A DNA stretch of 64,000 bases, from positions 248,001-312,000 of the forward strand of contig PNKZ01000001.1 in NCBI GenBank assembly GCA_013822735.1, given 5' to 3'. The stretch's first letter is position 1, and each line of letters opens with the position of its first letter. Made by a program: the position numbers and the translations under genes. The stretch comes from Pirellula sp. Its GTDB lineage: Bacteria; Planctomycetota; Planctomycetia; Pirellulales; PNKZ01. Below the pieces are notes generated by a model. The model made no database searches, was not told where the DNA came from, and was given only the letters and a program-made list of their open reading frames with translations. Shown piece by piece: positions 2,859 to 45,800 of this stretch.

Positions 2859-2925
2859 GCGTGAAGCCGGCGTGAGACAAAGGCGGGATGCAAGCGGAGT
2901 TCCATATTATGATCGCCGGCCACAT

Positions 2926-2962
2926 GCATACTAGCCCCGCTCTCGCCGGCAAGGGGACTTCT
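2926..2962. repeat. Single arm of the CATACTAGCCCCG palindromic repeat family
   Basis: The stretch begins GCATACTAGCCCCG and ends GGGGACTTC. It matches one arm of the large inverted repeat at 3794-3878, differing mainly in the middle. It lies in the gap between the divergently transcribed phosphoesterase and TauE genes. It is one of at least three sites of this family in the window. Confidence 0.6.
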
Positions 2963-3044
2963 CGCATACATCGGCTATCGTCTTGCGCCGCGTACGATTA
3001 CACTCGCCAATTCTTTGTTTCTTAAACTTTCCGATGGCTGCGCT

Positions 3045-3791: not shown

Positions 3792-3793
3792 CG

Positions 3794-3878
3794 CATACTA
3801 GCCCCGACGCGCCAGCGAGGGGACGTTCGGCATGCTGCAATTTCGGAGTCCCCTCGCTGGTGCGTCGGGGCTAGTATG
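3794..3878. repeat. Near-perfect 30-bp inverted repeat, possible bidirectional terminator
   Basis: The left arm 3794-3823 (starts CATACTAGCCCCGACGCG) and the right arm 3849-3878 (ends GGGGCTAGTATG) are reverse complements with one mismatch, around a 25-base loop. The element fills the gap between the convergent TauE gene (stop 3791) and WD40 gene (stop 3890). As RNA it would form a very stable hairpin on either strand, but there is no T-tract. Single arms of the same family occur at 2926-2962 and 10148-10186, so it is a dispersed repeat and not just a local terminator. Confidence 0.8.
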
Positions 3879-3889
3879 GAGTGGCGAAC

Positions 3890-11022: not shown

Positions 11023-12444
11023 ATGTTGCGCGTGCAATGTGATCCCGCCCAAGCCGCTTCCGGTACGAAGTATTGCGACGGCGTTTCCCGCCGCAGCTTT
11101 TTGCAAATCGGCATGGCCGGCATGGGCTCGCTCGGCTTGGCCGACATTCTGCGGGCCTCGCAAGGATCGTCGGCAGGCGCAAGTTCTTCGGCCGTCAAAG
11201 GTCCGGCAGCGACGAAGCGCGGCACCAGCGTCATTTTGCTGTGGCTCGATGGCGGCCCGAGCCATATCGACACGTACGACATGAAGCCCGACGCGCCGGC
11301 CGAAGTGCGCGGGATTTGGAGCCCGATTAAGTCGAACGTGCCGGGCATGGAAATGACGGAGCTGTTTCCGTTGCAGGCGCAGATCGCCGACAAGTTTTCG
11401 GTGATCCGTTCGATGCACCACGACAACGGCGACCACTTCACCGGCGGCCACTACATGCTGACGGGGAAGGGGGGCGTGAGCGGCGCGGCCAATGCGGGGA
11501 AGCATCCCTTCATCGGCGCGGCGGCCGTGAAGATGACCGGCGCGCGACAGCCGGGCATGCCGGCGCATGTGGCGGTGCCGCAAGCGATGAGCATCGGCTT
11601 GCGCCCCGGCTACTTCGGCGGCAACTACCTCGGCAAGCAATACGACCCGTTCGACACCGGCGGTGATCCGAACGGCAAGACGTTCAACGTGCAGAACCTG
11701 ACGCAAGTGGCCGGGCTCGATTTGCCGCGGTTGCAAAACCGGCGCTCGCTCTTAAGCTCGATGGATAATTTGCGCCGCGAAATCGACGGCGGCGGCGCGC
11801 TGGAGGCGGCCGACAAGTTTGATACGCAGGCCTATGAGCTGGTGACCGGCAAGCGCGCGACGGAAGCGTTCGACATCTCGAAGGAAAGCGACAAGGTCCG
11901 CGATCGCTACGGCCGGCACTCGTGGGGGCAGAGTGCTTTGCTCGCGCGGCGCCTCGTTGAAGCCGGCACGACGTTCGTCACCGTGCACTCCGGCGGCTGG
12001 GATCATCACTGGAATTTGCAGTCGGGCTATCACCGCAACTTGCCGATCGTCGATCAGATGACGTCGGCCTTGATTGAAGACTTGAGTGAGCGCGGCTTAC
12101 TCGACACGACGATGGTACTGCTTTGCGGCGAGTTTGGCCGGACGCCGAAGATGAACGACGGCGGGAACGGCGGTCCTCCGGGGAGCCAAGGGACGCCGGG
12201 GCGCGACCATTGGGGCAACGCGCTGAGCGTGTTGATTGCCGGCGGCGGCGTGAAGGGAGGACGAATGATCGGCACGACCGACGCGCGCGGTGAACGTCCG
12301 AAAGATCGTCCGCTGACGCCGGGGGATTTGCACTCGACGATCTTCCAAGTGCTCGGCGTCGATCGACATTTGGCCTTCAACGACTTCAGCGGTCGGCCGA
12401 CGCGCGTGATCGAAGAAGGGGACGTGATTCACGAGCTGTTCTAA
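11023..12444 (+). CDS. DUF1501 family Tat-exported protein (second copy)
   Basis: 473 residues from the ATG at 11023, with GAAGGA about 9 bases upstream. The twin-arginine signal SRRSFLQIGMAGMGSLGLAD starts near residue 22. Family motifs are VILLWLDGGPSHIDTYDMKP, HDNGDHFTGGHYMLTGKGGV, YGRHSWGQSALLARRLVEAG and LLCGEFGRTPKMNDGGNGGP, the last being the SEFGRTP-type motif of the fold. It differs clearly from the DUF1501 protein at 5023-6321, so it belongs to another subfamily and is not a recent duplicate. No PSD1 gene lies upstream; it is probably transcribed alone from the repeat-rich region before it. The reaction is not established for the family. Confidence 0.92.
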   Translation: MLRVQCDPAQAASGTKYCDGVSRRSFLQIGMAGMGSLGLADILRASQGSSAGASSSAVKGPAATKRGTSVILLWLDGGPSHIDTYDMKPDAPAEVRGIWSPIKSNVPGMEMTELFPLQAQIADKFSVIRSMHHDNGDHFTGGHYMLTGKGGVSGAANAGKHPFIGAAAVKMTGARQPGMPAHVAVPQAMSIGLRPGYFGGNYLGKQYDPFDTGGDPNGKTFNVQNLTQVAGLDLPRLQNRRSLLSSMDNLRREIDGGGALEAADKFDTQAYELVTGKRATEAFDISKESDKVRDRYGRHSWGQSALLARRLVEAGTTFVTVHSGGWDHHWNLQSGYHRNLPIVDQMTSALIEDLSERGLLDTTMVLLCGEFGRTPKMNDGGNGGPPGSQGTPGRDHWGNALSVLIAGGGVKGGRMIGTTDARGERPKDRPLTPGDLHSTIFQVLGVDRHLAFNDFSGRPTRVIEEGDVIHELF

Positions 12445-12567
12445 AGTCGGCGCATGCGGGTTTCTCGCGCAGCGGACACAAACCCCTAACATGCGGATCG
12501 ACAATACGTACGGCTCAGAATAGTTGTCTCCGAGCCGCGTCGGGTTGGTTTTGCCGCGACGCCGAGA

Positions 12568-14658
12568 TTGCCCGTCGCGTGTGCATCCGTGCCTTCCGCC
12601 ACTCCTCGACGATTGCCCCGGGCCCCGACGAAAGCGACGGCGCTTGGTTCGGGCAAGCGCTCTGTTGCCGAAGCTTGTCCGACTTTTCGAAGGCGGCTTG
12701 AACGGCGCAGCGTCTGGCTGGTCGTGTTGTTGCTCGGTTTACATGTCGGATTGGGAAATTGGGCCGTAGCGCGGAAGAGCGTGACGTTCGACGAGGTGCT
12801 GCACTTGGCGTCGGGCTACGCCTATTGGGAGTTTGGCGACTTTCGTTTACAGCCGACCAATGGGAATTTTCCCCAGCGCTGGGCCACGCTGCCGCTCTGG
12901 ATCGCCGACGTGAAGTACCCTACGCGCGACCAAGAGGAATGGTATCAGTCGGGCTACCTCGGCTTGGAAATCGGCCGACAGATGCTCTACAAGATCGGCA
13001 ACGACCCTGACCTGTTGCTGGCGGCGTCGCGGTTTATGATCTCGCTGTTGAGCGCGGCGCTCGGGTTGCTGATCTACGATTGGTCGCGCCGGCTCTTCGG
13101 GAAGATCGGCGGGCTTTATTCGCTGGCGCTGTACGCCGTGAGCCCCATCTTCTTGGCACACGGTTTCTTGGCGACGTCGGACGTCGCTGCGGCCGCGTGT
13201 TATCTGGCGGCGACCGGTTCGCTGTGGTCGGTGTTGCATCAGGTGTCGGTCGGGCGATTGGCCGCGATGTTCTCGAGCGTGGGGCTGTTGGCGGTTGCGA
13301 AGATGTCGGCTCCGCTCTTGGCGCCGATGGCCGTGTTGATGGTCGCCGCGCGGGTCGGGTACGGTCGCCCCTGGCTAATTGACCTGGGGGGTCGACGGCG
13401 CCTGGTCCGAGGCCGAATTGCGCAAACGATGCTCGCCGCGGGCCTCGGCGCGTATGTGTTCGTCGCGGCGTTCTTTACGATCTGGGCCTTCCATCACTTC
13501 CGCTACGAGGCGATGGTCGACGCCGTCGCGGGGCGCGACGACTTCTCCGTATCGTGGCCGGACGTACTCGACGGCATCGGCCGCTCGCAACGCGTATTTG
13601 AGTGGTGCCGAGAAATGCGCGTGCTTCCCGAGGCATATCTATACGGCCTCGCGCATACGATCAAATTTTCCCAGGAGCGCGATGCGTTCCTATTGGGAAT
13701 GTATTCAATGACCGGCTGGTGGTACTTTTTTCCGTACTGCTTCCTGGCGAAAACGGCGACGTTCGAATGGTTGGCAGGCCTGGTCTCCGGCGCGACGTTG
13801 ATCTATGCCGCGACCAAGGCTTCGCCGCGGATGAGCAAGCGCGGACTGTACTATGCCGTGCCGCTCGCGGCTTTGTGGTGCGTTTATTGGGGCGCCGCCG
13901 TCACGAGCAATTTGAATATCGGCAATCGCCACTTGTTGCCCATCTACGGACCTTGGTACATCGGCTGCGGCGCGCTGGCTTGGCTGCTATACGCGCGGCA
14001 TGCGATGGTGCGCCGGTTGGGCGCGGTGTTAGTTTGCGCCTGCTTTGCCGATGCCGCCCATGCCTATCCACACTACTTGGCGTACTTCAACGCCTGGGTC
14101 GGCGGGCCGGATCGCGGCTATCGGCAAATGATCGACAGTTCCCTCGATTGGGGACAAGACCTTAAAGAGTTGGGGCAGTGGTCCGTTGAAGAGCGGAAAG
14201 CCGGCCGGCTGCGTGGACGATTGTTCTACGACTATTTCGGGCTCGCCGACGCCGGGTATCACAAGGTGCAAGGCGAGGAGTTCCCGCTCTTCTATGCCGC
14301 GGAACTCGATCCGAAACGCCCGGTTTCGATCGCGCCCGGAACTTACGCAGTGAGCGCTACCTATCTCGTGAACAAAGGACATTGGATCGTCCAGCTCGAG
14401 CCTTATTATCAAAAGCTCTTGAAGTCGATTGAAATACTGTCGCGCACGCATCCTTGGACTTCGCAACTTCCTCCCGACGCCTATCCGCCGGAAATTGCGG
14501 AGCAGTGGCGCATCTATCTGTACCAGCTTCTGGACTATCAAACGTTTCGGCTGTACTACCACCTGCTGAACGATCGGACGCCGAGGACGACCGTCGGGCA
14601 TTCGATTCTCGTGTATGACGTCTCCCAAGAGGAGCTCGATCGTTGGTTGCTAGACTGA
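12568..14658 (+). CDS. Multi-spanning GT-C fold glycosyltransferase-like membrane protein
   Basis: Up to 696 residues from a TTG at 12568; a GTG at 12589 is an alternative, and the first ~45 residues are basic and poorly hydrophobic, so the start is uncertain. About ten hydrophobic segments follow. After the first one comes KSVTFDEVLHLASGYAYW (about residues 70-88), with the Asp-Glu pair in the first outer loop that is typical of GT-C enzymes such as the GT39/PMT-like and ArnT-like families. These use lipid-linked sugars and transfer them on the outer face of the inner membrane. The C-terminal ~170 residues are soluble and include DSSLDWGQDLKELGQW, a motif I associate with the same planctomycete family. 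Acceptor and sugar are unknown. It follows the DUF1501 gene by 123 bases on the same strand. Confidence 0.78.
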   Translation: MPVACASVPSATPRRLPRAPTKATALGSGKRSVAEACPTFRRRLERRSVWLVVLLLGLHVGLGNWAVARKSVTFDEVLHLASGYAYWEFGDFRLQPTNGNFPQRWATLPLWIADVKYPTRDQEEWYQSGYLGLEIGRQMLYKIGNDPDLLLAASRFMISLLSAALGLLIYDWSRRLFGKIGGLYSLALYAVSPIFLAHGFLATSDVAAAACYLAATGSLWSVLHQVSVGRLAAMFSSVGLLAVAKMSAPLLAPMAVLMVAARVGYGRPWLIDLGGRRRLVRGRIAQTMLAAGLGAYVFVAAFFTIWAFHHFRYEAMVDAVAGRDDFSVSWPDVLDGIGRSQRVFEWCREMRVLPEAYLYGLAHTIKFSQERDAFLLGMYSMTGWWYFFPYCFLAKTATFEWLAGLVSGATLIYAATKASPRMSKRGLYYAVPLAALWCVYWGAAVTSNLNIGNRHLLPIYGPWYIGCGALAWLLYARHAMVRRLGAVLVCACFADAAHAYPHYLAYFNAWVGGPDRGYRQMIDSSLDWGQDLKELGQWSVEERKAGRLRGRLFYDYFGLADAGYHKVQGEEFPLFYAAELDPKRPVSIAPGTYAVSATYLVNKGHWIVQLEPYYQKLLKSIEILSRTHPWTSQLPPDAYPPEIAEQWRIYLYQLLDYQTFRLYYHLLNDRTPRTTVGHSILVYDVSQEELDRWLLD

Positions 14659-26569: not shown

Positions 26570-28804
26570 TCACGGCTTTGCAAAGCCGCGCTTTCGCATG
26601 AGGGCTTCGATGCCGGCGTCCCGACCTCGAAACGCCCGGTAGCTGTCGGTGGAGTCGATCGTATTGCCGAGGGTGAAGACATGGTCCCGTAGTCGCTTCG
26701 CGACGGCTTTGTCCCAAGGGCTTCCCGCCTCGGTGAACGCCTCCCAGGCGTCGGCCGTAAGCGTGTCGGCCCACAAGTAGCTGTAGTAAGCCGCGGAGTA
26801 TCCGTCACTCCCGAAGAGGTGAAGGAATTGAGGCGTGCGGTGCCGCATGACGATCTCACGCGGCATCCCCAACTCGGCTAGCGTTTCTCGTTCGAATCGC
26901 CCCGGCTCGATCTGACGGTCGCCGGCGAGATGCAGTTTCATATCGACCAGGGCACTCGCCAAAAACTCGACCGTGCGGAAGCCTTCGTTGAACGTCGCCG
27001 CACGCTTAAGGCGAGCCACGAGTTCCTTCGGAATCGGCCGGCCGGTCTCATAGTGGAGTGCGAATTGTTCGAGGACCTCGGGCGTGGAAAGCCAGTGTTC
27101 CAGTAGTTGCGAAGGAAACTCTACGAAGTCGCGCGCCACGTTGGTGCCGGCCAGCGACGGGTAGTTCACCGAGGACAAGAGTCCGTGGAGAGCGTGACCG
27201 AATTCATGAAACAACGTCGTGGCGTCGTCCCAGCTGATGAGCACGGGCTCACCCGGCCGTCCGGGCATGTAGTTGCAGTTGTTCGACACGATCGGAGACA
27301 CTTCCCCGTCAAACCGTTCCTGCGCGCGATAGTCGCTCATCCAAGCGCCGGACCGCTTGCCTGAGCGGGCGAATGGGTCGAAGTACCAAAGGCCGACGTG
27401 CATGCCTGTCCCGTCGACCACTTCCCAGACGCGCACGTCGGGGTGATACACCGGTACGCGGCCCGGCTCCAGCGGCCGAAACTCTAATCCAAACAGTTCG
27501 CGCGCCGTGAAAAACATTCCCTCGCGAAGCTTTTCCAATTGCAGATACGGCATGAGCTCGGTCTTGTCGAGATCGTACTTCGCAGTCCGCACCTTCTCGG
27601 CATAGTAGCGGTAGTCCCAGGGCTCGATCGTGATGCCCGTTCCCTCGCGGTCGGCGACCGCTTGCATGTCGGCCACCTCCTCGTGAACCCGAGCTACGGC
27701 CGGCTTCCAGACTGCCTCCATCAGAGCAAGTGCCCGCTCCGGCGTCTTTGCCATCGCATGCTCGACGCGCCAGTGAGCGTGCGTAGGGTAGCCCAGCAGC
27801 TTGGCTCGTCGGGCACGCAGCGCCAGTGTCTCCGTGATGATCGCGTTGTTGTCGTGGGCGCCGCCGTCGCCTCGGCCGACGAACATGCGCCATACCTTTT
27901 CCCGTATGTCGCGCCGCGACGCGAAGGCCAAGAACGGATCGACGCTCGAACGAGTGTTCTGGATCGCCCACTGTCCCTGCTTGCCGCGAGCTGCCGCCGC
28001 TTCAGCGGCGGCAGACTTCACGTCGTCGGGTAGGCCGGCCGTGTCAGATACATCGACCAAGAACACCACTTCGTCCGTCTCGCAAGCGAGCAGATTCTGG
28101 CTAAACGCCGTCGTAAGCTCGGCCAGTCTCTGGTTGATCGTCGAAAGTTCCTGCTTAGCGTTGGCGTCGAGATTTGCACCGGCACGGACGAAGTTGGTGT
28201 AGACGAGCCAAGTCAACCGCTGCTGCTCGGGCGTGAGGCCCGACGACTCACGCGCGGCGTACACAGCCGAAATCCTGGCAAAGAGCTTGTCGTCTTGGTA
28301 GATGCGGTCGTCGAAGGCCGCCAGCTTTGGCGACATTTCTTTCTCCACTGCCCGGAGCGGTTCGTCGCTCATGCACGCGGTGAGGGTGTCATAAACCGAC
28401 TTCACGCGACCGAGCGTACGGCCCGACCTTTCTAAGGCGGCGATCGTGTTCTCGAACGACGGCGGGGCAGGATCGGCCGTGATTTTCGAGATGGCTTTGA
28501 CTTGCTCCCGCATGCCGACTTCGAGTGCCGTCGCTATGTCGGCCGTCTTCGCCAGATCGTACGGAGGCACGCCGCCCCAGGAACCGCTCCAGGGTGCGAC
28601 AAGGGGATTGGTGGCGGAGACTTCGGCGGCGCTCATCATATTTGAATAACCCCAAGTGACTGCAACAACGAGGTTCGGCAGGATCCGTCGGCAGCGTTCC
28701 ACGGATCGCCTCGCTTGGTAGCAACATATCGCCGGAAGATTCTCGGCGACAGCGGTGCCGAGCTTGGCAACGACCGTTTGAATTATCGAACGCCAAGGTT
28801 TCAT
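26570..28804 (-). CDS. M3 family zinc metallopeptidase (Dcp/OpdA-like)
   Basis: 744 residues from the ATG at 28804; an earlier ATG at 28822 is possible. The first ~60 residues are atypical (basic, with a weak hydrophobic stretch RILPNLVVAVTWGY) and may be an export or anchoring signal, which would place it in the periplasm. The rest matches M3 peptidases from NPLVAPWSGSWGGVPPYDL on. The zinc site is intact: TTLFHEFGHALHG with HEFGH at 533-537 and the third ligand Glu563 in FVEFPSQLLEHW. A further mark is FGSDGYSAAYYSYLWADTL. The family cleaves dipeptides or short oligopeptides; size and layout fit dipeptidyl carboxypeptidase or oligopeptidase A. It has no operon partner. Confidence 0.93.
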   Translation of the reverse strand: MKPWRSIIQTVVAKLGTAVAENLPAICCYQARRSVERCRRILPNLVVAVTWGYSNMMSAAEVSATNPLVAPWSGSWGGVPPYDLAKTADIATALEVGMREQVKAISKITADPAPPSFENTIAALERSGRTLGRVKSVYDTLTACMSDEPLRAVEKEMSPKLAAFDDRIYQDDKLFARISAVYAARESSGLTPEQQRLTWLVYTNFVRAGANLDANAKQELSTINQRLAELTTAFSQNLLACETDEVVFLVDVSDTAGLPDDVKSAAAEAAAARGKQGQWAIQNTRSSVDPFLAFASRRDIREKVWRMFVGRGDGGAHDNNAIITETLALRARRAKLLGYPTHAHWRVEHAMAKTPERALALMEAVWKPAVARVHEEVADMQAVADREGTGITIEPWDYRYYAEKVRTAKYDLDKTELMPYLQLEKLREGMFFTARELFGLEFRPLEPGRVPVYHPDVRVWEVVDGTGMHVGLWYFDPFARSGKRSGAWMSDYRAQERFDGEVSPIVSNNCNYMPGRPGEPVLISWDDATTLFHEFGHALHGLLSSVNYPSLAGTNVARDFVEFPSQLLEHWLSTPEVLEQFALHYETGRPIPKELVARLKRAATFNEGFRTVEFLASALVDMKLHLAGDRQIEPGRFERETLAELGMPREIVMRHRTPQFLHLFGSDGYSAAYYSYLWADTLTADAWEAFTEAGSPWDKAVAKRLRDHVFTLGNTIDSTDSYRAFRGRDAGIEALMRKRGFAKP

Positions 28805-28888
28805 GGTCCGCTCTCTCGCCATTACGACGCCGGGGGAGGCAGCGTCACAATTTATACGTCTTCTTGAAATTACAAGAAAGGAGTTCCT

Positions 28889-29176
28889 ATCCTCAAACTC
28901 AACATCGGATTCACCATGAAGGTCGGCGAAGCCAATTACGGCTCTCGCGACGCCAGCGTGAATCTAGAACTCGAACTCGATTCGTCGCTTGTCGGCGCTC
29001 CCGATCGGCTCAAAGAAAGGATCGCCCTCAATGCCATCGCGGATCGCAAACAAATCTCGCTTCCGGAGCTACTCACGGCGCGATTCCAGATCCAAGAGCC
29101 GTCGGGGCTCACGATCACGGAGGCTAGTTCGCTGATCGACGAGCTGAAGGGACCCGGCGGTGCGGTGGCGCGATGA
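28889..29176 (+). pseudogene. Remnant of a small gene with lost start codon and internal deletion, coupled to a nuclease gene
   Basis: A strong ribosome site AAAGGAG (28877-28883) lies 5 bases before ATC at 28889. From there the frame reads ILKLNIGFTMKVGEANYGSR and DASVNLELELDSSLVGAPDR. I know planctomycete homologues that begin with this sequence from a Met, so the ATG has probably changed to ATC. Translation could restart at the ATG at 28916, giving 86 residues. After KERIALNAIADRKQ the text jumps to a C-terminal motif (LTITEASSLIDELKG) usually found much later, so a central part seems deleted. The stop overlaps the next gene's ATG as ATGA. The role in intact homologues is not established; it pairs with a RecB-like nuclease, often in mobile DNA. 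Confidence 0.6.
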
Positions 29177-29844
29177 TCGGCGCTCTTCCGGGAAAGGAAT
29201 CTCATAAGCGCGTACGAGATTAACTCAGCTACTCGGCGATCACGACCTATCAAGGCTGTCCGCTTCGGTACTACTTTCGCTATATTGCCGGCCTGCAGGA
29301 GCGGACCGTCTCGGCGAGCCTTATTTTCGGCAGTGCCATCCACTGTGCTGTCGAACATCACTTCAATGAGTTGATGTAAGGAAACGAACGACCGAAGATA
29401 GAAGAACTGCTCAGGCAATACGACCGGCACTGTACGGAAACGGACATTCGAGTAGTGCGTTACCGGAATGGAGAAGACGTTGAGTCGCTCCATCGACTGG
29501 CGCACCGAATGCTGGCGGCTTTCCAAGCCGGCGGATTGTCACGTCCGACCGGTCACATATTGGGTATCGAAGAAGGACTTCGCGGCAACATCGTACCCGG
29601 CTGCCCGGATGTACTCGGGCGGATCGACCTCTAGATCGAGACGTCCAACGAACTCATCGTCACCGACCTCAAGACATCACGTTCGAAGTGGTCAAGCGAC
29701 CAAGCCGACGATGCCGCAGGGCAACTCTTGCTCTATCACGAACTCGCACCACTTAAATTGCTCGGGTTGAACCCACGCCGCGCGCTAAGAAAATATCCCA
29801 ATGCTACGCCGTCATTCGCTTTCCATTGCGCTACCGCTCGCTGA
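29173..29844 (+). pseudogene. Decayed PD-(D/E)XK (RecB-like) nuclease gene with three in-frame stops
   Basis: The frame from the ATG at 29173 reads through TAA at 29221, TAA at 29377 and TAG at 29632 to a TGA at 29842, with no frameshift needed in between. Ignoring the stops, the product matches RecB-like nucleases: SAITTYQGCPLRYYFRYIAG, SLIFGSAIHCAVEHHFNELM, then PGCPDVLGRIDL and ELIVTDLKTSRSKWS with the Asp and Asp-x-Lys of the catalytic core, and ADDAAGQLLLYHELAPL. The third stop sits between the catalytic Asp and the Asp-Leu-Lys motif. The C-terminal part beyond ~29760 no longer resembles the family. It overlaps the preceding remnant by ATGA, so the pair was an operon that is now inactive, unless the stops are read through. 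Confidence 0.82.
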
Positions 29845-30875
29845 TCGTCGTAATCAGTTGGGCGCTGAAGGTCTACAGCACGAGCTTAGCGAAGGTCGAG
29901 CTTAGCGAAGGTAAGTAGAACAGACACGACAAAAACTGTTTCGAACGTGCGAAATCGCAAGGGATTCGCGGCAAGTTGGCTGCTAATGAGCCCCTATTCA
30001 TCTTGCGGTCGATTGCGATGAATTCCGTGCGATTAACTACACTTTCCGACAATCCGAAAATCTGGGCGATCGACGATGTCGAGAGTCGATTCAAATATCA
30101 TCGTTCCGATTGAGACGCCGACAGCCCCTTGATGTCAAATGATTTGGCCCAAGTTTTTACGGCAGCGTTGTCATTTCCAGGCTCAACTTCAGTATCAGGC
30201 GACGACTTCATAAAACTCTTTGTGTCGCTCGAAATTCAGCGCCCGGTTTGCGAGACCATTTCACGCCCGCGATCTTGGTCGGCAATAGCATCGCTTTAAG
30301 TTCCGGCGATGGCTCATGCCTGAACTTTTAGATCGGCATGTCGTGCTCGGTACTTGGCGTCGAAACGGATGCGCTTTTGCGTCGCAGCGCCGTGTTAGGT
30401 GTGACATCAGGCGGCATCCAATTGAGCGATGACTGTTTTCGCCTAGTGGGCCAGCCGCAGGCCTTGAGAGTTCAATCATGAAAATGCTATTGAGCGGGTT
30501 CGAATGAACGTGAGTTGGTATTCGACGCTTCTCAGTGCTTTTCTTTGCAGAGCCGATTTCGACTGAACGCGAATAGCAAACAGTAGCGACAGTGTGGCTA
30601 CTGCATCACGACAGTAACGACATTTAGTCGCCGATTAGTCGCGATTTACTGCGACATCGTGACGCACATAACTCGCTTTCTGATTCGGTACGGCCGCGTC
30701 TTGGGCAAATTGCGCTGTTGCTCGGCCATTCGGACATGCCGGCATTTCGTTTGCATTCTAGGCAAATCTTGAGTTTTTCTTCGCGGCGATTTTGTCTTCG
30801 TTGTTGCCTCAATAACGAAACGTCGAAGCCGTCGCATCGCTTCTTTTGGCGATTTGCCTGCCTAGGGCTCACAGC
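29845..30875. other. 1-kb non-coding leader upstream of a giant gene
   Basis: No frame gives a recognisable protein. A 15-16-base unit (GAGCTTAGCGAAGGT) occurs twice in tandem at 29881-29911. Two TTAGTCGC words 11 bases apart (30624-30631 and 30635-30642), with further CGAC words around them, may be an operator. The GC content seems lower than in the neighbouring genes. The promoter of the 15-kb gene starting near 30876 should lie here, but no unique -35/-10 pair can be chosen. Confidence 0.4.
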
Positions 30876-33800
30876 ATGTCTGATAGCAAAGCGCGAGTAT
30901 TCGTTTCCTTCTCAAGCGGCACCGCTTCAAAAACAGAATCAATTCTACGAACGCCGCTGTTCGTCACCGACGCGATGCGAAGCTATCGCAATTGTCGCGC
31001 AGTTTTTCGTCGCCGCATTCTGATGATCGCGGCCCATCGAATAACAGTAGTTGCGTCCATCGCGGCGTTAGCCTTCTCCGGGATTCCCTCGCGTGCGCTC
31101 GCCGCTACAGTGGATTGGGGCGTGTCCCAAAGCGGAGAACCAGGCATTTATTCATGGCAACTGCTCGACAACTGGACCGACGCCGGACAGCCTGTGACGG
31201 CGGTTCCCAACGCAATCGCGGATGTCGCCAACTTGAATCTGCGCGATCTTATCGGCAATCAGATTATTAATCTCGACGGCCTCGTCTCGATCGGCACTTT
31301 GAATATCGGTGACGCGAATGGGCGGCAAAGTTACACCATCGCGGCCGGAACTGGCGGATCGCTGACATTTAACGGCGGGACTTCGTCGACGATAAATAAG
31401 TTCGGCATCGGGTCCGACGTCATCACGGCGAACGTCACGCTGACCGGCGCGGCGCCGCTCTCATTGAACGTCGATGATGGAATCCTGGCACTGACAGGCG
31501 TCGTCAGCGGAGCAGGGGGCCTAGTGAAGAACGGCGACGGGACGTTGATTCTCAGCGGCGCCAACACATACACAGGCGTAACTACGCTAAATAGCGGCAT
31601 GACACTACTCACGGCCGTCGGTAATAACACTAGCGTTCTCGGCGCCACTTCGGCCGGCAACCAAACGATCGTCAACTCGGGCGCTACGTTGGCTTACGGA
31701 CCGGATGTGTTCGGCTCCGGACAGTACGTTCCGACGGAGCCTGTCACGATCAACGGCGACGGCTTCCGCCGTAATGGCGCCATCCGCAGTTTCATGGGTA
31801 CTAACGGTACCAACATTAACGGAGTGGTGACGATGGGGAGCGCCGCGCGCATCCAAAACGACCAAGCAGGCACGCTTACCATCAGCCAAGCCTTCCAGAT
31901 AAACAATACGCTCACCGCGGGCGGCGTCGGTTTTGTGGACATAGCGGGAGATGCATCGGGGGCCGCCGACATTAATCATTACGGTCTTTCCGGCTTCCGA
32001 ATGCGTAGCACGTCCGCGAATCAGAGTTACTCCGGCACGATCAATTCCTCTCTCGGCGAAATTCGCGCCGACTACGGAACAGATGGAGACGCAGGAAAGC
32101 AAGCGCCGTATGCGGCCGTGACCGCGCTGAACTTGAAGGACTCCTGGCTTCGCATGGGGTTCGGCAACGCCGCCGGAAATGCGACCAGTGACACCAACAC
32201 CAATAGCACTCCGGACTCCCGCTTTTCCACCACCGCTCCCATCAGCATGTCCTCAAGCCAAATCTACATCGACAATGCCTCGTTCAGCAGCACCTCGACC
32301 AATTATTACGACTATGCGGTCATTCAGCATTTGGGCCTCACGACGATCAATAGCGGTCACAACCGCATCGGCTTTCGCTCGGCGGATGCCGGCTCGGTGG
32401 CGTTGACTTTCGTCGACATCCAAAACCCGAATCCGGGGACGACCTTGGAGCTGTTTGTGGACAACCTTATCGGGACCGCGCTCGGTGCCGGGACGAAGCA
32501 TCGAATCTTTAACACCGCGCTCGACACACTTGGAGCGGACGTACCCTTTATCGGCGGCTGGGCATATACCTACACGGGAACTTCGGGCACCGGCGGCGCG
32601 TTCGTGAAGTACGACTTTACAGGGGGGAACGGCTACACGGCGATCACGCCATCCGCTACGGCATTGGCAGGAGCGGTTTCCACGGATGACATACGTGTGA
32701 CGACCAATCAAACGGGCTTTGGCAACGTCACAGTTAACTCCCTGAACATTGCCGGCGGAGCAACGGCATTAACGATTGGCAATGCCACCGACAATCTCGT
32801 AATCACATCGGGCGGATTAATGAGCAGCAGCGGCACCAATACGATTGCCGCAGCCACCCTGACCAGCGGTTCAGGAACCTTGTACGACATTGCGATCGTC
32901 TCCCACAACATCTCCTCGGACATTACCGGAAATATCAATCTTGTGAAGGTGGGCACGGGTACTACTTCGTACCTTACGGCCAATAGTTACACCGGTACCA
33001 CCTACATCAACGAAGGCCAGTTCCGCGGCGTCATCGGCTCAAAGGCCGCGGCACTTGGTTCCGGCAACCTCACTTTCGGCGGCTCGCCGAATAGCCAGGC
33101 CACTTATGAGAACGACAGTGACTTTACACGCGCGCTCGGCTCAGGTGTGGGAGAAGTGCAATTCCTCGGCGGCGGCGGCGTCGGCGGCGGCAGCGCGGGC
33201 TTCTCGGCCTACGGGGCGCCTATAAACGTCGATTTCGGCGGCGCGGGCGCACCGATAACCTGGGGAAGCGCCTCCTTTAGCCCGGGCATTTTCACGCTTA
33301 ACGGCGGTAATGCTACACACGTCGTCACGTTGATCAATCCAATCGATCTCGGCGGCGAGCAACGCTATTTCCGCTTGGACGGCAACGCGTCCGGCGGAAA
33401 CCGCGCGGTCATGGGAGTTGTTGCCGGAGACCTTAGCAACGGCGGCGTCGTGAAGCGCGGCGGCGGAGAACTGATCTTCAACACCCCTAAGAGCTACGAA
33501 GGGGGGACGATCGTTAGTGAAGGCGAACTCTGGCTTACGGCAACAGGTACCGCCGGCGCAAATGTAATCGGTAACGACATCCAAATTGCTTCGAACGCCA
33601 AGCTTTACATCAACGCTCCGAGCAACATTGGTTCGAAGCAGATGGTCATATTGCAGAACAACGACGTCAACACGCCTGCGGCGCTCAATCTCGGCCCGGG
33701 CTATGGTACGGGGCTCGGCATCACGTTCAGTAGTTGGACGGCGACCGGAGGGATTCCAGGCACGGGCGGCAACAACTTCTTGATTGCCAACGACCAGAGC

Positions 33801-36800
33801 GGGCAGGCCCGCCGCATTGCGATAACTATTACCGGCACGGATTTTCAGGCAGACGTTCCCGGGCTGATCCGCGCCGTGGCACCCAACGTCGAGACCTGGT
33901 TCGGTGCCGACAATTCGAACGGCATATTCACTGGCGCAAAACTGACTCCGTCCGGCGGCGCCATTTCTGCCTACCGACTGGGCGGTAACAGCAATAACTC
34001 AGGAGTCCTCACGATCGCGAATGAAAACGTTCTCACGGACGCTGCAGGTTTTGCAACACCGCTGATCGTCGGCGCACCGGATTCGACGGCGCGCACTTAC
34101 ACGCAAGGCACCGTGTACATTCCGTATTACCAAAGCTTCAGCGGTCAGGTGACGATCGGAGCGGGTGGAATCCTTCAGGTCGGCAATAACGACGCCCTCG
34201 GCGGCAGTCTATCCGATATTAATCTCCGCGCCGGCGAACTCCGCCTGGACGTGGCAGGGGGCAGCTTCGGCGGAGCAGTAGACTCTCAGTACATCATGCG
34301 CAATCTTAATGTCGCATTGGCGACGAGCACGATCCGCACCACGACGTTGCATGGCGGAGGATTCAATACCGTCCAAATTGGAGACCTTACGTTTGATTCG
34401 GTTAACAATGGCGTGACCACCGGCGTTGCGGGGCGTTCGCTGCAGGTGCTCAGCATCGGCACCAATTTCACCGACCTCGCCGTTAATAACATCAACTTTG
34501 CCGATTCCGCCGGCACGATCAATTTGATCGTCGGTAACGACAACAGCTTCCAAGCGGGAGTCGGTATTCTCACCGTGAATGGAACCATACTCGATCAAGC
34601 GACGGGCGCACAATCCATTCGAAAGAGCAACGGCGGCGTACTCGTACTGACGAATGCCGGCAACACATACGATGGCGATACGGTCGTCAACCAAGGCCGT
34701 GTAGTTCTCACCACACCGGGTGCGGCGAGCACGTCAACCATCAGCATGGCTACCGCGGGTTCACGTCGCGGCGATATCGAATTCCGGGGCGACGGTGCGG
34801 GACCAACGCTTGTTTACAACAATCCCGTGACGACGTCCGGAGGCGACGCGAATAGCTCTCGCGTGATCGTAGTCGGGCCGACCGGGCCCGGCTCGCAGGA
34901 TCTGACGGTGCAAATCCCCTCACTTACAATCAATAACGCCGGCGGCTACTCCGTTGGCGGAACGGGAAGCAGTGCGCTCTTTTTTGACGGCTCCGCCGGT
35001 TACAGGCTAGAAGTCACAGGACCCGTTACCCTCACCTCCGACATCAACCTGCGCACTCGCGGCGCGCTGGTGACGTTTAGCGGGGTCGTCAGCGGCGCGG
35101 GCAATCTGGAGAAACACGAGCAGGGCACGCTCGTTCTTAACAACGCCAACACCTATACCGGCACGACCACGATCAGCAATGGTTACCTGATTGCGGGTGA
35201 CGATCAAGCGTTCGGCAACGCTGCTAGCGATATCGTCTTCCGGAATAACGTGTTCTCGCAAATCTTAGCGAGCGGCACTCGCACTATAAACCGCAACTTT
35301 ATCAATACGGCAACGGCAAACATTCAATCTCTCGGCGGTCTGGACGCCGGCGCAAAGCTCTTCAGCGGCAACGTCAATCTCTCGAACCGCGGCATGTCGT
35401 TCACTTCGTTCTCGGGCGGCGATACTACCTTCAGCGGATTAATAAGCGGCGACTTCGGAATTCAGAAAGAAGGCAACGGCACGGTTATTCTCGACCCCGC
35501 GACCGGCACGGGAAACACCTACACGGGTACGACGACCGTTGTTCAAGGGATTCTAATCGGCCAAGCGCAGGCGACGAGCGGCAGCCCGTTCGGCATCGGA
35601 GGAATGACCATTCTGGACGCGGAAGTCCAGCTACGCGGATTAGCGGGCGCTAGTTCGACCACCTCCAGCGCGGGTGCGTTGACCGTATCCGGCGGTGCGC
35701 GGATTGCCGTCAACGACCTCGCCGCCGATGCGTTCACGACGACGTTCACGTTTGACTCGCTGATTCGCAGCGGAGCGGCAGGCACGGTTACGTTTGTGCC
35801 CTTCCGCGGCGCATTGGGCACCGAGGAAAACTTTACTTTCACGAGCGCGCTCAGCAATGTGAACGGCATCGTGGGGTCTTGGGCCGTTCATACCATGTCT
35901 GGATCGAACAACGCCGCAAACTATATCGTCGGCGGAGCCACCAGCGTAGCCACTTACATTTACGGTCCCGCTTCCGGCAGCATTGATGCCGTGACCGGAT
36001 CCACGCAGGTCTTCGACGCCTCCGGCATCGGCGGCACCCTCACCGCGGACCGCGCCGTTTTTGCATTTCGCACGGATACAAATATTGATCTTGGCGGATT
36101 CCGACTTCAGGTAGGAGATACGGCGACGCCGGCAAACGGCGGCGGCATCATTCTGAACAATGGGGCAAGCATCAACGGCGGCGCAGGCTCGCGCATCAAC
36201 ATCGAAGACACGGCGCTTTCTCTTTACGTGGACGACGCAGCCGTCTCTTCGTTAAGCGTGCCGATCAGAAACTTCCGTAGCAATGCCACGAACACGCTGA
36301 CGACCGTCTTAACCAAGTTTGGCACCGGCGCGCTGCAGATCAACGCGGTACAAGAATTTGAAGGGAATATCGAACTTAGTCGCGGCACACTGCGTTTTGG
36401 CGCCGCGAACGTCCTGCCCTTCTTCTCCAACCTCGGCGGAACAAGCGGCTCGATTATTATCATGTCGCCGGGAACGACGATCGACCTGAACGGATTCGAT
36501 CAGGAATTCGGCAACCTTTCCGCAGTCAACCCCAGTAACTCGTTTCAGTTCTCGGCCGGCTCGCTCATCCTCGACGGCAACACGCTCACCGTAGGACGCG
36601 AAGACAGCAATCAGGAGTTTAACGGGCAGCTTCTCGGCACGGCGGGTTCGAGACTCATCAAGGCCGGGACAGGCACGCTGACATTGAGCAACATTAACGG
36701 CAACCGACCGAATGCGCTGGATACGCTCGAAATTACTCAAGGCGGCGTGAGCGCTTGGGTCAACGACAACTCCTGGGCTACGCCCACTACCAACACCTCG

Positions 36801-39800
36801 GCCATTCCGAGCACGACGACCATCCTGCTTCGTGGCGGGACTTTCACGGCCCTCGCCATCGGCGACAGCACCAGCAATCAGCAACGTATCAACATCGGTA
36901 ACGACATCGTCCACCAAGGTGCGGACTCTATTTTCACAACGGCCCGTGCCACCGGCAGCGGCAGCAACAAACTGCTGACATTCAACGACCTGACGCTTGA
37001 CGTGCAGCTCTTTCGAGTCACCAACGGCAGCGCTTTCATTCCCCGTTTCGACGGCACGACGACGCTCACGAATCATTCCCGGCTGCAGGTAGACAATTCC
37101 CTGGTGCTAGCCGGCGTCATCACCGACGGCGGTAACGGCTATACGCTAAACAAAATTGGCGGCGGCGACCTCGAAATCGGCGGCGACAGTGGCGCAACCT
37201 GGACGGGCGGCACCGTCGTTACGGGAGGAACGCTCATCTTCGGTACTCGTGGGCTCGACGACATTCGGACCCCGGGCACCACGTTGGTGTATACGGCAAC
37301 GTCCAACGCCGGTGCCGGCGACATTATCGTCAACCAAGGTTCCGCGATTCGTATTACCGCGCCTACAAACATTCTCTCCAAAGAGAATCCTTATATCTCC
37401 GGGTACAACCAGGAGGTCCGCATCTACGGATCGGAACGCGGCTCCACCACGCGCGTGGACCTACTCACGGATGCTCCGATCACCAACTACGGGCTGCGTT
37501 CACTCTCGGATGGTTCGATCGCACTAGGTCTAAGTGAAGGACTCTGGACCACTCCGATTAGTCTCGCGAAGCTTGGGTCCGGCCAATGGGGTATTTCTGC
37601 GCTTTCCAACACGTTTTATACGGCAAGTACGCTCGGTGCGAGCGTGGACAACCGCTACATATTCAATGGCACCGCCTCGGGCATTCTCACCATTGTCAAT
37701 TCAAACGTACTCACAGGCACCGCCTCCGTGGAACTCGGCAAGGCGCCCATTTTTCCCGGAGCCACGCCTGCCGGGTCGGGAGCGAGCATCCGCTTGTACG
37801 GCGATCAGAGCTACACGGGAAATACGACCATCTTCCGAACGGCGGATGCTACCAGCATCGGATCGATTCTTGAGTTGACCGGTGACAGCAAGTCGCCCGT
37901 GTTCGACGTCTACGGACGCCTCACCCTCCGCGGTGCCGGTCGACTCACGGATGACACCGGTGCGCAGGTTAACGCACTGAATCTCCGGCCCGGCGGTAAC
38001 CTACGTCTCGATTACAGCATGGACGTGAATGACAGCTTCGTGACGTCGCGTTACGACGAAAGCAATCTTGGTACCGAGCAGACGGAGAACAAGTTGGGGG
38101 ACACGACGCCGCTTGTGCTCGACGGTGCGGGGATCAACCTGATCAACAGCAGCGGTCGTGCAAACCAGGAAACCGTGGGTACCGTGACCATCAAGAACGG
38201 TGCGGGAATTACCCTGGAACGTAACGGCACCAACGGCCAAATCAGCCTAAACATTCTAAACATCGTTCGCGACGGCCAAGCGACGCTCGCAGTGCGCGAA
38301 AATGCGAATGAACTTGGTTCCGTGAACTTACAGAGCATGAAGCTCTTCAATGCAACCACGCCTGTGCTCACGAATGGAATCGTGGCCCCGTGGATGATCA
38401 ATGCGACACGTCGAACGTTCCTCTCTTACGACATTAACCTCGGCTACCAAAATGCTCCGTTTGTCACCGGCACGCCGACGTTAGGCGGCGGCAACGCGTT
38501 TCTCAGCGGCGTCGGCGGCACGGACGTCGTGCAGTTTTCCGGCGGCTGGGGCGACACCACACTTACCGGCACCAAGAACGTCTATGCCCTGCGCGTTGAT
38601 GAAGAATCCGGCACGAACGATATGGTTTTTGACGGCGGCCAAATCAATATCTGGAGCGGTGGTCTGATTCTAGGAAGCGACGATTCGAATCGTGTGAATT
38701 TTAATACGACCAACGTTTATTTCGGAGACGGTATTACGCCTGTCGAAGGCATCGTTTACGGCGGACATAATACGCCGAACTCCCGCTTCGGCGGCATTGT
38801 CACTGCGGCCAACCTAACCTTCGACGGCCCGGGCGGCTTCCAGATGACCAACAGCGCGAATGCCATCACCGGCACGATCCAATTGAACGGCGGTCGTCTT
38901 TATCTCGATGGCGCCGGCACACAAGGCTCGGCCACCGCGATCATCCTAGGCGCCGACTACGCCAATAACTTCAACGGCAATCAGATGGCCGACCTACATC
39001 TGCGACACGCCAGCGCCACCACGACCTACGATATGGACATTATCGTCGCGGCGAACGTGCCTTATGCACAGATTCAGACGGAGCGCTTTTCCGGATCCGG
39101 CACGACCACAGCGGTGCAATTCAATAACTTAAGCATTCTCGGCACCGACGGTCCTGCGGGCACGCTCTTGCGGCTGAATAACAATAACTCGAACACTAAC
39201 GTGCTCGGCGCGACGACCATCGGCGGCTCAAGCCCCGTGGGAATGAATGTCAACGCCAACACGTGGGACTTCCAGGGCGGGATCACAGGTGCCGCGCCCA
39301 TCGTGAAGACGGGCGCCGGCATTCTGCGCTGGGACGGCGACAACTCCGGTTTCACGGGCGGCTTTACTCTGAACGCCGGCGAATGGCGACTTACCGCGGC
39401 GAATACCGCCGACTACGACGTGGGCGGCACGGGCGACGTCGAATTGAATTTCGGCGTCGTACGCATGGCGCAGAACGGCGCCTCGAGCGTCTTCACGGCC
39501 GTCGGTCAAGACATTTCCGTCAATGGTCAGGTTACATTCATCACCGATCGCAACGGCGGCGCGAGCGCCGCCAATCGCACGATCGGCGTGAACGGCTCCC
39601 CCAGCGGTAACTTCTTTCGAATGACGAACAGTCCCTATGTCATCTTCCAGGCTGCAAGCACGGGAGACGACATCATTATCGAGAGTCAGATCGTTATCAG
39701 CGGCAGTCCGACGTTCCGCGTCGACAATACGGAGCTCTTCCTCAATGGACTGGTCAGCGGAACCGGCACGTTTAATAAGGCCGGATCCTATTACATGTAC

Positions 39801-42800
39801 TTCAATAACAATACGGCCAACACGTTCAGCGGTGGTTTCAACAATTTTGCCGGTCACACGCGTGTCGGCCAAGCGAATGCCACGCTCGGCACCGGTCCGG
39901 TGAATATCTTCGCCGGCTCCGCGCTGTCGATTGTCGGCGCGAGCAATCTGGGCCCTGGCCCCCTCACGATCTATACCAGCGGCACGGCCCTTCCGGTCAT
40001 CGGCACGCGAACGATCGCCAATTTTAACGCCGTCACTGCGGCCGTCGCTGCGAGCACCATCAATGGTACCGGCGAAGGTATCCTGGCGATCGACGGTAAT
40101 CAGAGTCTGTCGGTCGACCCGAATATGGGTGGACGCGATGCCGGCGCCTTCCACAGATGGTTCATCGGATCGGGCGACGGTAACGGTAATTTGACGGCCA
40201 ACAGCATCTCGCCCTGGGGCGCCTTCAATAATGAATTCCGGCTCGGCGGCGGCACGGCCACCTTGACCCTACAACCGTCGACCGCCGGTTCCGATCAGCT
40301 TGCGGGAACGGGAAATCGAGTGATCATCGGTGCCCCCGACGCCGTGATGGGATTCGGCACGGTCGCTTTTGGCGCCAACGGCAACAACTCCTACGACGGC
40401 GGCACGCTGGTTTCACGCGCGCGTAATCGCGACGGCGGCTACCGCGCTGTGGCACTCTCCCTCCAAGGCGGTGCGGTCGGCACAGGCACCACCTTCCGCA
40501 CGACGCTGGGCAGCGGGCAGGTGGACGTGTTTGGCGAGATCCGGATCGAAGGTGCTTCAGGCACTGCCGTAGGAACAGGTCTGATCAACAAGAATGTTTG
40601 GGTTTTCCATGGCGGCTCGCGACTCCGGTTCGACAACGGAACGCCGTTCACAGGCAGCGGCACCACGGGCAATCTCGCCTCCGGTACTATCGGCGGCGGC
40701 GGCCGCTGGGCGGACACCCAGAGCATCACGCTTTTCAGCACGGTGATCGACATGGTCGGTGACGGCACTGATCATGCTGCAAACCGGGAACTGATCGGTG
40801 ACATCAATGTAGGCGGCGGCTCCGAAGTAGTCGTCCGCCGCACTACGGGCTTCGCCGCAGTGTTGGAGACGAGCAACATTATCCGTAACGTCACGCCCGG
40901 TATCGGCCAGTACGGCACGCTTATGCTCCGTCACGATGCCGGATTGCTCGGCGTCGCAGGGTCGGTGAATGCCGACCGATTCCTCGTCACTTCCGGCGCC
41001 GGCGCCGCTCTTGGTCAAGTGCCGGTTACCAACAATATGGTCGACCCTTGGATCACAAGTCGCTCGGAAAATCAGTTTCTCAAATACGACGCGGTGCTCG
41101 GATTCCAAACCATTACCCAGGGAGGAGCGCCGGCAAATTACGTCAGCTCCCCCGCCGCCACTCTAGATAGCTCCGTGCTGCCGTTGAACAATGGTACGGA
41201 GATTCTTGACACCACGGCGAATCCGTCGACGCTGGGCATGAACCTAGACATTCACGCCTTGCGAACCAGTCGAAACATAAATAACAGCCCGGACAACGTC
41301 TTCCGCAAAATTACCATTCGTAGCGGCGGCATCATTGCGGCGGCGAACACGGATGTTCTTAATCCCGACCTTTACTTCGGTTCCTCAGTCAACTCGGTCG
41401 ACGGCTCGAATGCAGGCGAGGCGCTCATCTGGGCCAATTCCGGTGCACTCTCCATCAACGGCAAGATCTATGCTAGTCAGGTAACGAAGTCGGGAACGAA
41501 CTCGCTGAATATCATCGCCGATCAGCCGCAGTTCACCGGCAATTGGGTGATCAATGGCGGCATCGTTCAGTTTCAGACTCCCAATGCGCAGAGCACCGGC
41601 GAGGTCATACTCAACGCCGCGCACATGGCGGACAGTGACAGCTTATTCAACCTTACGGAAGTGCGCTACAACTTCAACAGCGGCACGCCCGACCTCTTCA
41701 CGTGGGGCGGCGGAAAAATCACAGTGAACGATATGGGGCAAATTCGTTCCGTCGCCGCGGCCGACCGTCTCGATCAGATCCCGGCAATCGATCTAAAAAC
41801 TACCGGCGGCGGGATGGAAGGAATCGTTTTCTTTCAGTCGGATTCTTTGCGACATACGATCCGAACCGGTGCGGTCACACTGTACGACAATTACCTGATC
41901 AGCGTCGATGCCACAAGCTTTGGCCCCGGCTCGACCAGCGGCGTACAAATCGGCTCTGGAAACGGAACCGGCGGCCTGAACAACCAAGGGCTCTACGACT
42001 TGCGTACCAGCGGCGACGGCATTCTCACCCTCGGCGACAATAGCGCCAGCTTCACCGGCTTTCATACCTTTAGTATCGGCGACGGAACAGTGCGCGTTCT
42101 TGACAACGGAGCCTTTGGCGCCGGAACGGTTACCGCCTATGCCCGATCGACCTCGGCGATCGAGATTGCGGTGTCCAACTTCGTTTCCACGGCAAACCTC
42201 ATCCAAGAACCTGGTTCTATCGAGCGTTGGACGCGGAGCGACGCGCGCGACACGAGCAACTATGCATTTCCCTTCGGCGTGCATTGGCAGGTGTTCACGG
42301 ACGTGTTCGGCCCAAGGTCGATTAGCATCAGCGGCGGCTCAATCATGGGCTACCTCCCGCTTGACTACGATGAAGTGGCCGTGATCCAAACGATTCACAG
42401 CGATGTGATTATTAACCTCTTTGCTGATTCGTATCTCGGCCAAATTTATCCGGCCGGCACGTCGAACGGCGCCAACAGCATCTTCTACGACATGGGGAAG
42501 CTGAACACCACGACGAATCTCGACCCGAGCAACGTCGGCTTGCGCGGCTCGTATCTCGTCATCGACGGCGACATCACCGGAAATTACAACCTGACGAAAG
42601 TCGGCCAAGACGTCATCAAGCTGGCGGGCGTGAACTCCTTCCTGAATCTCAACATTGAAGGCGGCATCATTCAGGTAGGGAGCCCTGATGCCGTTTCTCC
42701 CACCTCTGTAGTGAGCACGCGGGGTGAAGGGACTTCCGGCATTTTCGATTTGAACGGTTACAACCTGACGATCGGCGGTCTCTCAGGCCCCAGCGGCGCC

Positions 42801-45800
42801 GTCAACAACAGTGCCTTCGACGATAACACCCTGTACGTGAATACCACGGCCGACTACGTCTATGGCGGATCGATCGGCGGGGCCGTAACCCTTCGCAAGC
42901 AAGGACCCGGCAAACAAACTCTCACAGGTTTTAATGATTATCTCGGAGGCACTGTTCTTGAAGAGGGCGTCCTATCCGTCGCCGCGGACACGAGCCTCGG
43001 CCGGGTCCATTTGACTACCCGGTCTGATTCGCTCCGCTTCGTCGGAGGCACGCTCGAAACCACGGCGGACATGACGATTGCGCTTACACGCGGCCTCGAT
43101 CTCGAAGGTGCCGGAGGTTCCATCTCCACCGCGCCCTCCACCACGTTGCAGATCGACTCGATCATTACCGGTGTGGGCGCGCTGACTAAAGAAGATCTGG
43201 GGATTCTTCAAGTAAACAATGCGGCAAACGACTATTCCGGAGCCACGAACATTTTGGGCGGCACTCTGCAAGCAGGCGCGGTAAACGCTTTTGCTTCGCA
43301 ATCGCGACACGTTGTGGCGGGAGACGTAGTCTCCGGAAGTTTGAACCTCAACGGCTTCGATCAATTGATCGGTTCACTCGGTAGTATCGGTGCGTCACAG
43401 AACAATGCCGTCGTGGTGCTCGGCGCGAATATGCTCACGGTCGGTAACGACGCGACGCAGAACGCCGTCTATGCGGGCAGCATCACCGGTTCCGGGATCT
43501 TCCGGCTCAACGGCAACGGTTCGTTCCAGACGCTCGCTTTAGTAGACAACAGCGCACAAACATGGAGCACGGAGATTGCCAACGGTTTGCTGAATGTGGC
43601 GAGCAACGCCCAACTAGGTTCCGGCTCCGTGATGCTCGGCGTCGCCGGAGTGAGCGGCGCCGACGACTTTACCGGTTTGAATTTGCAGAGCGTCTCCACC
43701 TTTGCCAACGATATCGTCGTGGCCAACGTCAACGGCGTAGGTAGCGCCTCCATTACCTCGTCAATCGCACCTTCAACAATCAACGGTTCGGTAACTCTGG
43801 AAAGGAATATCTACGCCGGGGCCTCCGCGGGAACGCAGTTGAGCTTGGAAGGAGCCGTCGGCGGGAACGGAACCATCACGGTGATCGACGGCGGAGCACT
43901 CCGTCTTACCGCAGCGAACTCGTACGGCGCCGGCGTGGCAGACACTTCCGGCTCGCCGTTTCAAGGAGGTACGGTCGTCCGCGCCGGATCGTTGCTGTTG
44001 GAAAACAGCGTTGCTGCGGGCCTCTACAGAATCGTACTTGGAGACGCCGCCTCGACCGTCGGTGCCGCAGTGGACCGAGCTACGTTGACCAGTATCCTCG
44101 GCTCGGGTACGTGGAATCCAAATGGTGACGGACAATCGGCGACCTCCGGCGGCCAGGACGCCACAGGAACGACCGGCTTCGGTGCCTTCATCGGCGTAAA
44201 CACGGTAATCGACGGATTCGATTATTCTTCTAGTCCCATCGGAACGCGCATCCTTGTCGCCGGAGAGGAAGCCAATCCCGAACGCAACGGCATCTATACC
44301 ATTACCGCCTTCAATTTCGGTGCGAACACGACGATGAATCTGGTTCGTGCCGACGACTTCGAAAACTCCAGCCAGATGAAATACGGAGCGCAAGTCGCGG
44401 TTACTAACGGTACGTATGCCGGACAAACAATGTGGATGTTTGAGGAGCAGGTCGTCGTACGCAATGAGGCGACGCAAGAGCCGATTCGCTTCCGCCAAGA
44501 CGTTTTGAATCCGAACCTGGCCGTGCTTCAGAACATCAGCGGGCTTGCCGTCGCCAACGATATTGATGTCTACGCGACCAACGGATCTGGAACCGTGACC
44601 ATCGGCGGCAGCAGCACGGTCACTTCCGGAACCGGCATGTTCAGCGGAAATGTGACGCTGCAGAACTTCCTCGTCGGCACGTCAGAGTCGAAAACCGTAC
44701 AGTTGACGTCGAGCACTCTCGAAGGCGCCGGGATCACCCTCTCAGGAGCGATCTTCGAGATCGACCCGACTTCCGTTACCGGTGACCTACTGTCGATTGA
44801 GAAGGTCGGGACCGGAATTCTTACTCTGACCGGCGTCAACACGTACCGGGGCACGACGACGATCAATGCCGGCACATTGCAATTCGGCCGACAGGTCTCG
44901 CTCTACAATAACGTTGTCGGTAGTTGGACTGACACGAACTTTATTGTGAATAGCGGCGCGACGGCGGCGTTCAACGTCGGCGGTGTCGGTGAATTCACCA
45001 CTTCGGATATCGACACCCTCAAAGTGTTAGGGACGGCAACCGGCGGCTTCCGCAACGGCTCCGCGCTAGGCATCGATACGACCAACGCACCGACCGTCTT
45101 CAGCTACAACTCCGTCATTTCCGACACCAATGCCGGCGCCAATAGTATCGGTCTTACGAAGTTTGGTACGGGTCGACTTGAATTGACGAATTCCAATACG
45201 TATAGCGGCCCCACGATCGTCAATGCCGGAGTTCTCACCATCAACGGCTCATCGAGCGGCGGTGGCGCCGTACAGGTTAACGGCGGCACGCTCAACGGCG
45301 GCGTATCCGGTGCGCCGGTTTCGATTCTGACTTCGCAAATGACTGTGGGAAGCGATGGTACTTTCAGTGCCGGTTCCAGCACTGCGGGCGATAACGGTAA
45401 CGGCGTCGGCCGCATGAATGTCATAGGCGCGGCAACATGGACGGGCGGCTCGACGATGGTCTTCGATTTCGCGAGCACGCAGTCGGACGGTATCACGGGA
45501 GCCGGCACGGCCTGGGACTTATTAACTCTGACCAGCGGCTTGTCTTATACGGGCGTGGGCGAAATTACGGTGCAAATTGATTCCTGGGACAGTTTGCTTG
45601 CCGGATACGGGCAGAATGGCGGCGCAAACGACTTCGATCCTACGACTGCCGGTGATCAAGCATCGCCGTCCTATAGTTGGCTATGGGTCGACAACGCCGG
45701 AAGCCTAAGCGGTTTTACGCGCACGGCAATCCCCGGCTCGATTAACTTCGCGGACTATGTTTCAGAATTCGTGATTGACACGAACGCCGCGAATAGCAAC

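Follow-up and report, generated by a model that had tools for sequence, protein, structure and literature searches.

A decayed copy of a two-gene nuclease cassette in a Pirellula genome

A reading frame that holds its register across a conserved domain and is punctuated by stop codons raises the question of whether it is a gene in decay or one whose stops are still read as sense. Such a frame lies in the window, i.e., the whole 64,000-nucleotide stretch of a Pirellula genome analyzed here, in which a RecB-like nuclease gene and a short gene upstream of it had been described as a unit with a lost start, a deletion and three in-frame stops, the lack of frameshifts being taken as a sign of either very recent decay or readthrough. 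The unit is a genuine, ordinary pseudogene, and very probably represents a dead and solitary copy of a cassette that pairs a small unnamed partner with a PDDEXK_1 nuclease. Its parts are as follows:

28867..28888, + strand: upstream leftover with the ribosome-binding site (from the sequence and from blastn homology to the C2 paralog, which begins at 28867)
28877-28883, + strand: ribosome-binding site AAAGGAG, 5 nt before the ATC at 28889
28889..29176, + strand: upstream partner gene, decayed, with an ATC start and a 183-base in-frame loss at the 29023/29024 junction
29173..29745, + strand: PDDEXK_1 (RecB/Cas4-like) nuclease gene, decayed, its homologous part from about 29206
29746..29844, + strand: open tail without detectable homology, ending at the next stop, TGA 29842-29844

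The partner frame ends in the TGA at 29174-29176, which overlaps the nuclease ATG at 29173.

Lesions relative to the intact copies

A DNA-level search of the own genome (6.88 Mb in 38 contigs) recovered three more units, C2, C38 and C3, with both partner and nuclease frames open, so that the proposed check for an intact copy elsewhere in the genome returned three free of such lesions; the nuclease start of C2 is uncertain, with extra sequence at its gene junction. All three paralogous nucleases match PDDEXK_1 (PF12705) over nearly the whole profile at 107–124 bits against a cut-off of 22 (E 1e-30 to 1e-35). The nuclease part of the window copy aligns with them by blastn at E values of 1e-62, 8e-39 and 3e-26, far above chance, and its homology to the C2 copy runs from 28867 to near 29745. 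Thus, a RecB-like nuclease unit in decay is indeed what the window holds, with six inactivating lesions: the start, the partner deletion, three stops and the missing 3' end.

In the partner, position 28889 reads ATC, where the homologs in the alignment have ATG (8/9) or GTG (1/9), and the start is therefore lost as proposed; the ribosome site AAAGGAG is present 5 nt upstream of it. The deletion is also real and falls in this upstream gene, from which residues 46–106 of C38, i.e., 183 bases, are gone in frame. A new in-frame ATG at 28916 (Lys to Met) opens an 86-aa ORF that is without both the partner's first nine residues and residues 46–106.

In the nuclease, the three stops are present as TAA at 29221, TAA at 29377 and TAG at 29632. 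The first replaces a Tyr and the second an Ala, each of them found in all seven intact homologs, the second being at least two base changes away from every Ala codon seen; the third sits at a hydrophobic position. The frame had been described as preserved over 670 bases: it is kept, with neither frameshift nor gap in 532 bases aligned to C2, but the homologous stretch is shorter, at about 29206–29745 or ~540 bases, with detectable homology ending near 29745 and 29844 being merely the next stop. Past 29745, the nuclease is 3'-truncated or unrecognizable, and of 300 shuffles, between 23 and 174 reach the local scores obtained against seven intact 3' ends; the idea that a frameshift conceals the 3' end, for which there are short matches in the global alignment, was rejected on the same scores. 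About 80 C-terminal residues are thereby gone, including three of the four cysteines that are invariant in 7/7 homologs, and the first alone persists. When scanned in pieces against PDDEXK_1 (cut-off 22), the window copy gives 42.4 bits, no match and 14.7 bits (below the cut-off), and with three stops and an undetected 3' end it has no uninterrupted ORF containing all the core parts of the family. Inactivating lesions set against apparently functional homologs are what characterizes a pseudogene, and the window copy presents both.

Selection, age of decay and rival readings

Pairwise dN/dS, for which synonymous sites are near saturation, ranges from 0.10 to 0.22 between the window copy and seven intact homologs and from 0.09 to 0.21 among the intact ones themselves. 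In a codon model, the omega of the window branch (0.080) is not different from the background (0.070; lnL gain 0.04), and a wholly neutral window branch is 13.1 lnL units worse, which supports the accrual of most of the divergence of this copy under purifying selection. It differs at 16 of the 96 sites where the seven intact proteins agree, two of the 16 being stops; leave-one-out differences for the intact copies range from 1/97 to 18/114, the latter for C3, the most divergent of them, with which the window copy is comparable.

The age of the decay was estimated with a two-phase branch model, in which a constrained phase is followed by a final neutral phase where stops can arise. The likelihood is highest for a neutral phase of 0.3 substitutions per codon, or ~0.1 substitutions per site (about 0.16–0.50 per codon within 2 lnL units), 10.5 lnL units better than a phase of 0.02 per codon. 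This estimate dates the decay and is no proof of it, as the stops on their own push the phase above zero, and it carries the caveats of a single omega, saturation and an uncertain tree (support of 35/67 for the position of the window copy), with nuclease codons modeled and partner codons aligned only. Because this phase is shorter than the terminal branch of every intact copy (0.92–5.8 per codon), the decay probably set in after these copies had split from one another, and yet it is not very recent. The suggestion of very recent decay is disfavored by the 0.3 per codon, by the stop that needs at least two base changes and by the missing 3' end.

The lack of frameshifts, which the original prediction had stressed, holds over the 532 bases aligned. 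With the decayed copy C4 of the sibling genome G003 as a yardstick (four small indels per 83 substitutions in 435 aligned bases), rough arithmetic gives ~2.6 indels expected over the 53 implied neutral substitutions and a chance of ~0.08 of finding none. The absence is thus mildly unusual, and it offers little proof, the finding having been picked for its look. The argument is weak because in Salmonella, premature-stop point mutations are behind 131 of 346 pseudogenes; start-codon changes are behind two (PMC2916853).

Counting against decay are the omega equal to the background, the 16/96 differences similar to the 18/114 of C3, the absence of frameshifts and a deletion whose 183 bases are a multiple of three. 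The first and the third also favor the notion that readthrough or reassignment of the stops still allows a product to be made and kept under selection. Readthrough as the cause of the intact frame is nevertheless very unlikely, since none of 81 distinct tRNAs in the own genome (44 anticodons; ARAGORN on stretches covering the 78 hits of an Rfam search) is complementary to UAA, UAG or UGA, and the three own-genome paralogs themselves terminate with TAA. ARAGORN found no tRNA in the window. Moreover, the stops replace no consistent residue (a Tyr, an Ala and a hydrophobic position), the conserved C-terminus of the nuclease is undetectable, and the partner has lost both its start and a conserved segment. 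That errors of sequencing or assembly have disfigured a live gene might be entertained for an assembly in 38 contigs, but the probability is close to negligible: the lesions are of four kinds (a start substitution, the 183-base deletion, three stops and the missing 3' end) and include no frameshift, which is what long-read errors would mostly yield, and one stop again needs at least two base changes.

It is also very improbable that a functional gene is formed by the partner remnant ORF (ATG 28916, 86 aa) or by an antisense ORF at 28936-29526 (196 aa). Both frames are open, but the former has neither the first nine residues nor residues 46–106 of the partner, and an open antisense frame is to be expected here because antisense ORFs oppose intact units too, with clusters of such ORFs spanning 17 and 18 of 22 loci. 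If the unit is, as preferred here, a dead copy of the cassette, it would have diverged for long while still coding, would then have acquired three stops and been stripped of its start, its 3' end and a portion of the partner, and would since have drifted by about 0.1 neutral substitutions per site. Presumably, nothing need have retained it, because other copies persist in the genome.

Copies in the genus and the surroundings of the remnant

The nuclease was found by protein search in 4/4 genomes of the genus, the own genome included, and the cassette occurs there as several divergent copies, some of them decayed. A search with the partner profile revealed a second remnant in the own genome, on C20, which matches partner residues 59–125 and ~210 bases of the region that precedes the C2 unit, the sequence in between being missing. 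Sibling G003 has two decayed copies: C4, which compared with C1 of the same genome has lost five bases in one place and has indels of one base at three others, and C54, in which the nuclease behind the partner is without its N-terminus and begins at about residue 109. G003 also gives matches on C44 and C116, each at the end of its contig, which may be the two halves of a single gene. The C4 copy of G003 (L045) also has TAA at the same conserved nuclease Tyr codon as the window at 29221, each by one C-to-A change, probably by coincidence.

The neighbor gene of the window unit is found in siblings G001, G002 and G003 at 77–80% identity, with no unit beside it in any of the three by blastn and tblastn (~13.6, 4.9 and 2.6 kb past the match) and no blastn similarity to the window past that gene. 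By eye, the unit is flanked by an M3-type peptidase-like gene and a giant autotransporter-like ORF. The window has two giant ORFs, 30846-45992 (+; 5048 aa), which by eye is autotransporter-like with a PEP-CTERM-like end, and 46497-63962 (-; 5821 aa); the C20 remnant likewise adjoins a 2861-aa ORF of autotransporter-like appearance. A perfect 16-base tandem duplication is seen just 3' of the remnant, at 29881-29912. A search for flanking repeats that would mark an insertion gave this duplication and one 88% pair of 16 bases, of unassessed significance, and such repeats were not accepted. No RNA family reaches the gathering threshold in 28500-31000, and neither blastn of the three paralog loci nor tblastn of three clamp-like proteins found element genes in the window beyond the unit itself.

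Relatives of the nuclease, the partner and the role of the cassette

The nuclease is related in different ways to several known systems. To the RecB/AddB type of PDDEXK_1 it is linked by the paralog profile matches and the 42 bits of the first window piece; it differs in being a stand-alone protein of about 270–310 aa paired with the unnamed partner, and the window copy is broken. Cas4 (TIGR00372) shows a weak match over the C-terminal half, at 46.0 and 47.8 bits in the two paralogs scanned, below the NCBIfam equivalog cut-off of 65. The cysteines are Cas4-like, with one near the N-terminus and three near the C-terminus, invariant in 7/7, and this is the pattern of Cas4 and AddB. The phage exonuclease families phrog_69 and phrog_1218 are matched at E 7e-18 to 5e-25, and 18 phage records have proteins 22–29% identical to the C38 nuclease, but no relative of the partner turns up in the phage collection (tblastn, one query, E 0.01). 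Finally, the plasmid pDESTI.01 of Desulfomonile tiedjei encodes a nuclease 31.5% identical to that of the unit, and the gene just before it has the C-terminal domain of the partner (hmmsearch E 8e-6; hhalign E 2e-4, probability 47%); this pair is distant, however, with the partner's N-terminal domain left unaligned. The C38 partner had no tblastn match in plasmids at E 0.001, the nuclease profile none among PDB sequences at E 0.01, and the nuclease query none among viral contigs.

Neither Pfam (above cut-off) nor PHROGs (at E 0.01) contains a match to the partner, and the one copy scanned (C38) has none in NCBIfam or PADLOC. Its fold model (mean pLDDT 71, pTM 0.35) likewise matches nothing in the PDB or viral structure libraries at E 0.001 or better; an identity as an ERF/essential recombination protein, suggested by two such names among weak viral matches, was not adopted as evidence. 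At E 1e-6, and counting fragments, 50 of the 297 genomes of the class contain a match to the partner profile; a collection of 84,980 genomes yields 17 loci, all under planctomycete names, Phycisphaerales included. The single-contig genome G137 has nine matches, which makes it well suited to following the unit's spread. Across 47 partner loci, some of them one place seen twice, the nuclease adjoins on the same strand at 27, and of the 20 without it, at least four are explained by a record that stops within about 210 bases. A clamp-like ORF occurs at 12 of the 22 loci compared (10/20 without two duplicates), and three clamp-like members were compared with phrog_947, a phage processivity factor (E 1e-9; 0.002; no match). 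A protein that shares the N-terminal domain of the partner is encoded on two viral contigs; on the one scanned, L148, from which the nuclease of the unit is absent by search, the partner-like protein comes after a YqaJ/RecE-like exonuclease and before a Prim-Pol.

Neighbors of the paralogs include a Prim-Pol protein, an ATP-dependent ligase, a reverse transcriptase and, below cut-off, a DUF932-like protein. The statement that the family is often found in mobile or defense-related DNA fits loosely: a Prim-Pol, an ATP-dependent ligase, a clamp-like protein or a type I methyltransferase lies within about 5 kb of the paralogs. Judging from the fold family, these neighbors and the cysteine motif, a working cassette would most likely process DNA ends for the recombination or replication of a mobile element, with the partner acting together with the nuclease. 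We give roughly even weight to a broader reading, in which the remnant would be the fossil of a recombination/replication cassette of mobile elements that occurs across the Planctomycetota, is undescribed, and repeatedly multiplies and dies in these genomes; it would consist of a clamp-like protein, a Cas4-like PD-(D/E)XK nuclease and the small partner, the last sitting beside DNA-end exonucleases of more than one subfamily. Among the matches listed in a literature search, judged by title and the start of the abstract, no paper on the partner–nuclease cassette was found.

Routine as a pseudogene, the locus is of value as a pointer to a little-described conserved gene pair in planctomycete genomes. 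The partner profile, with 50 of 297 genomes and nine places in one of them, may mark mobile DNA in these bacteria, and the working and decayed copies across four related genomes allow decay to be timed. Near the C3 unit (L011) are a reverse transcriptase (RVT_1) at 12093-13418 (-) and, at 158-4386 (-), a type I methyltransferase together with a neighbor that matches the PADLOC HEC-06/Orf5 models. Next to the C38 unit, a 1421-aa protein (L010, 4292-8554, -), without a Pfam match at 0.001, has a P-loop-like stretch by eye.
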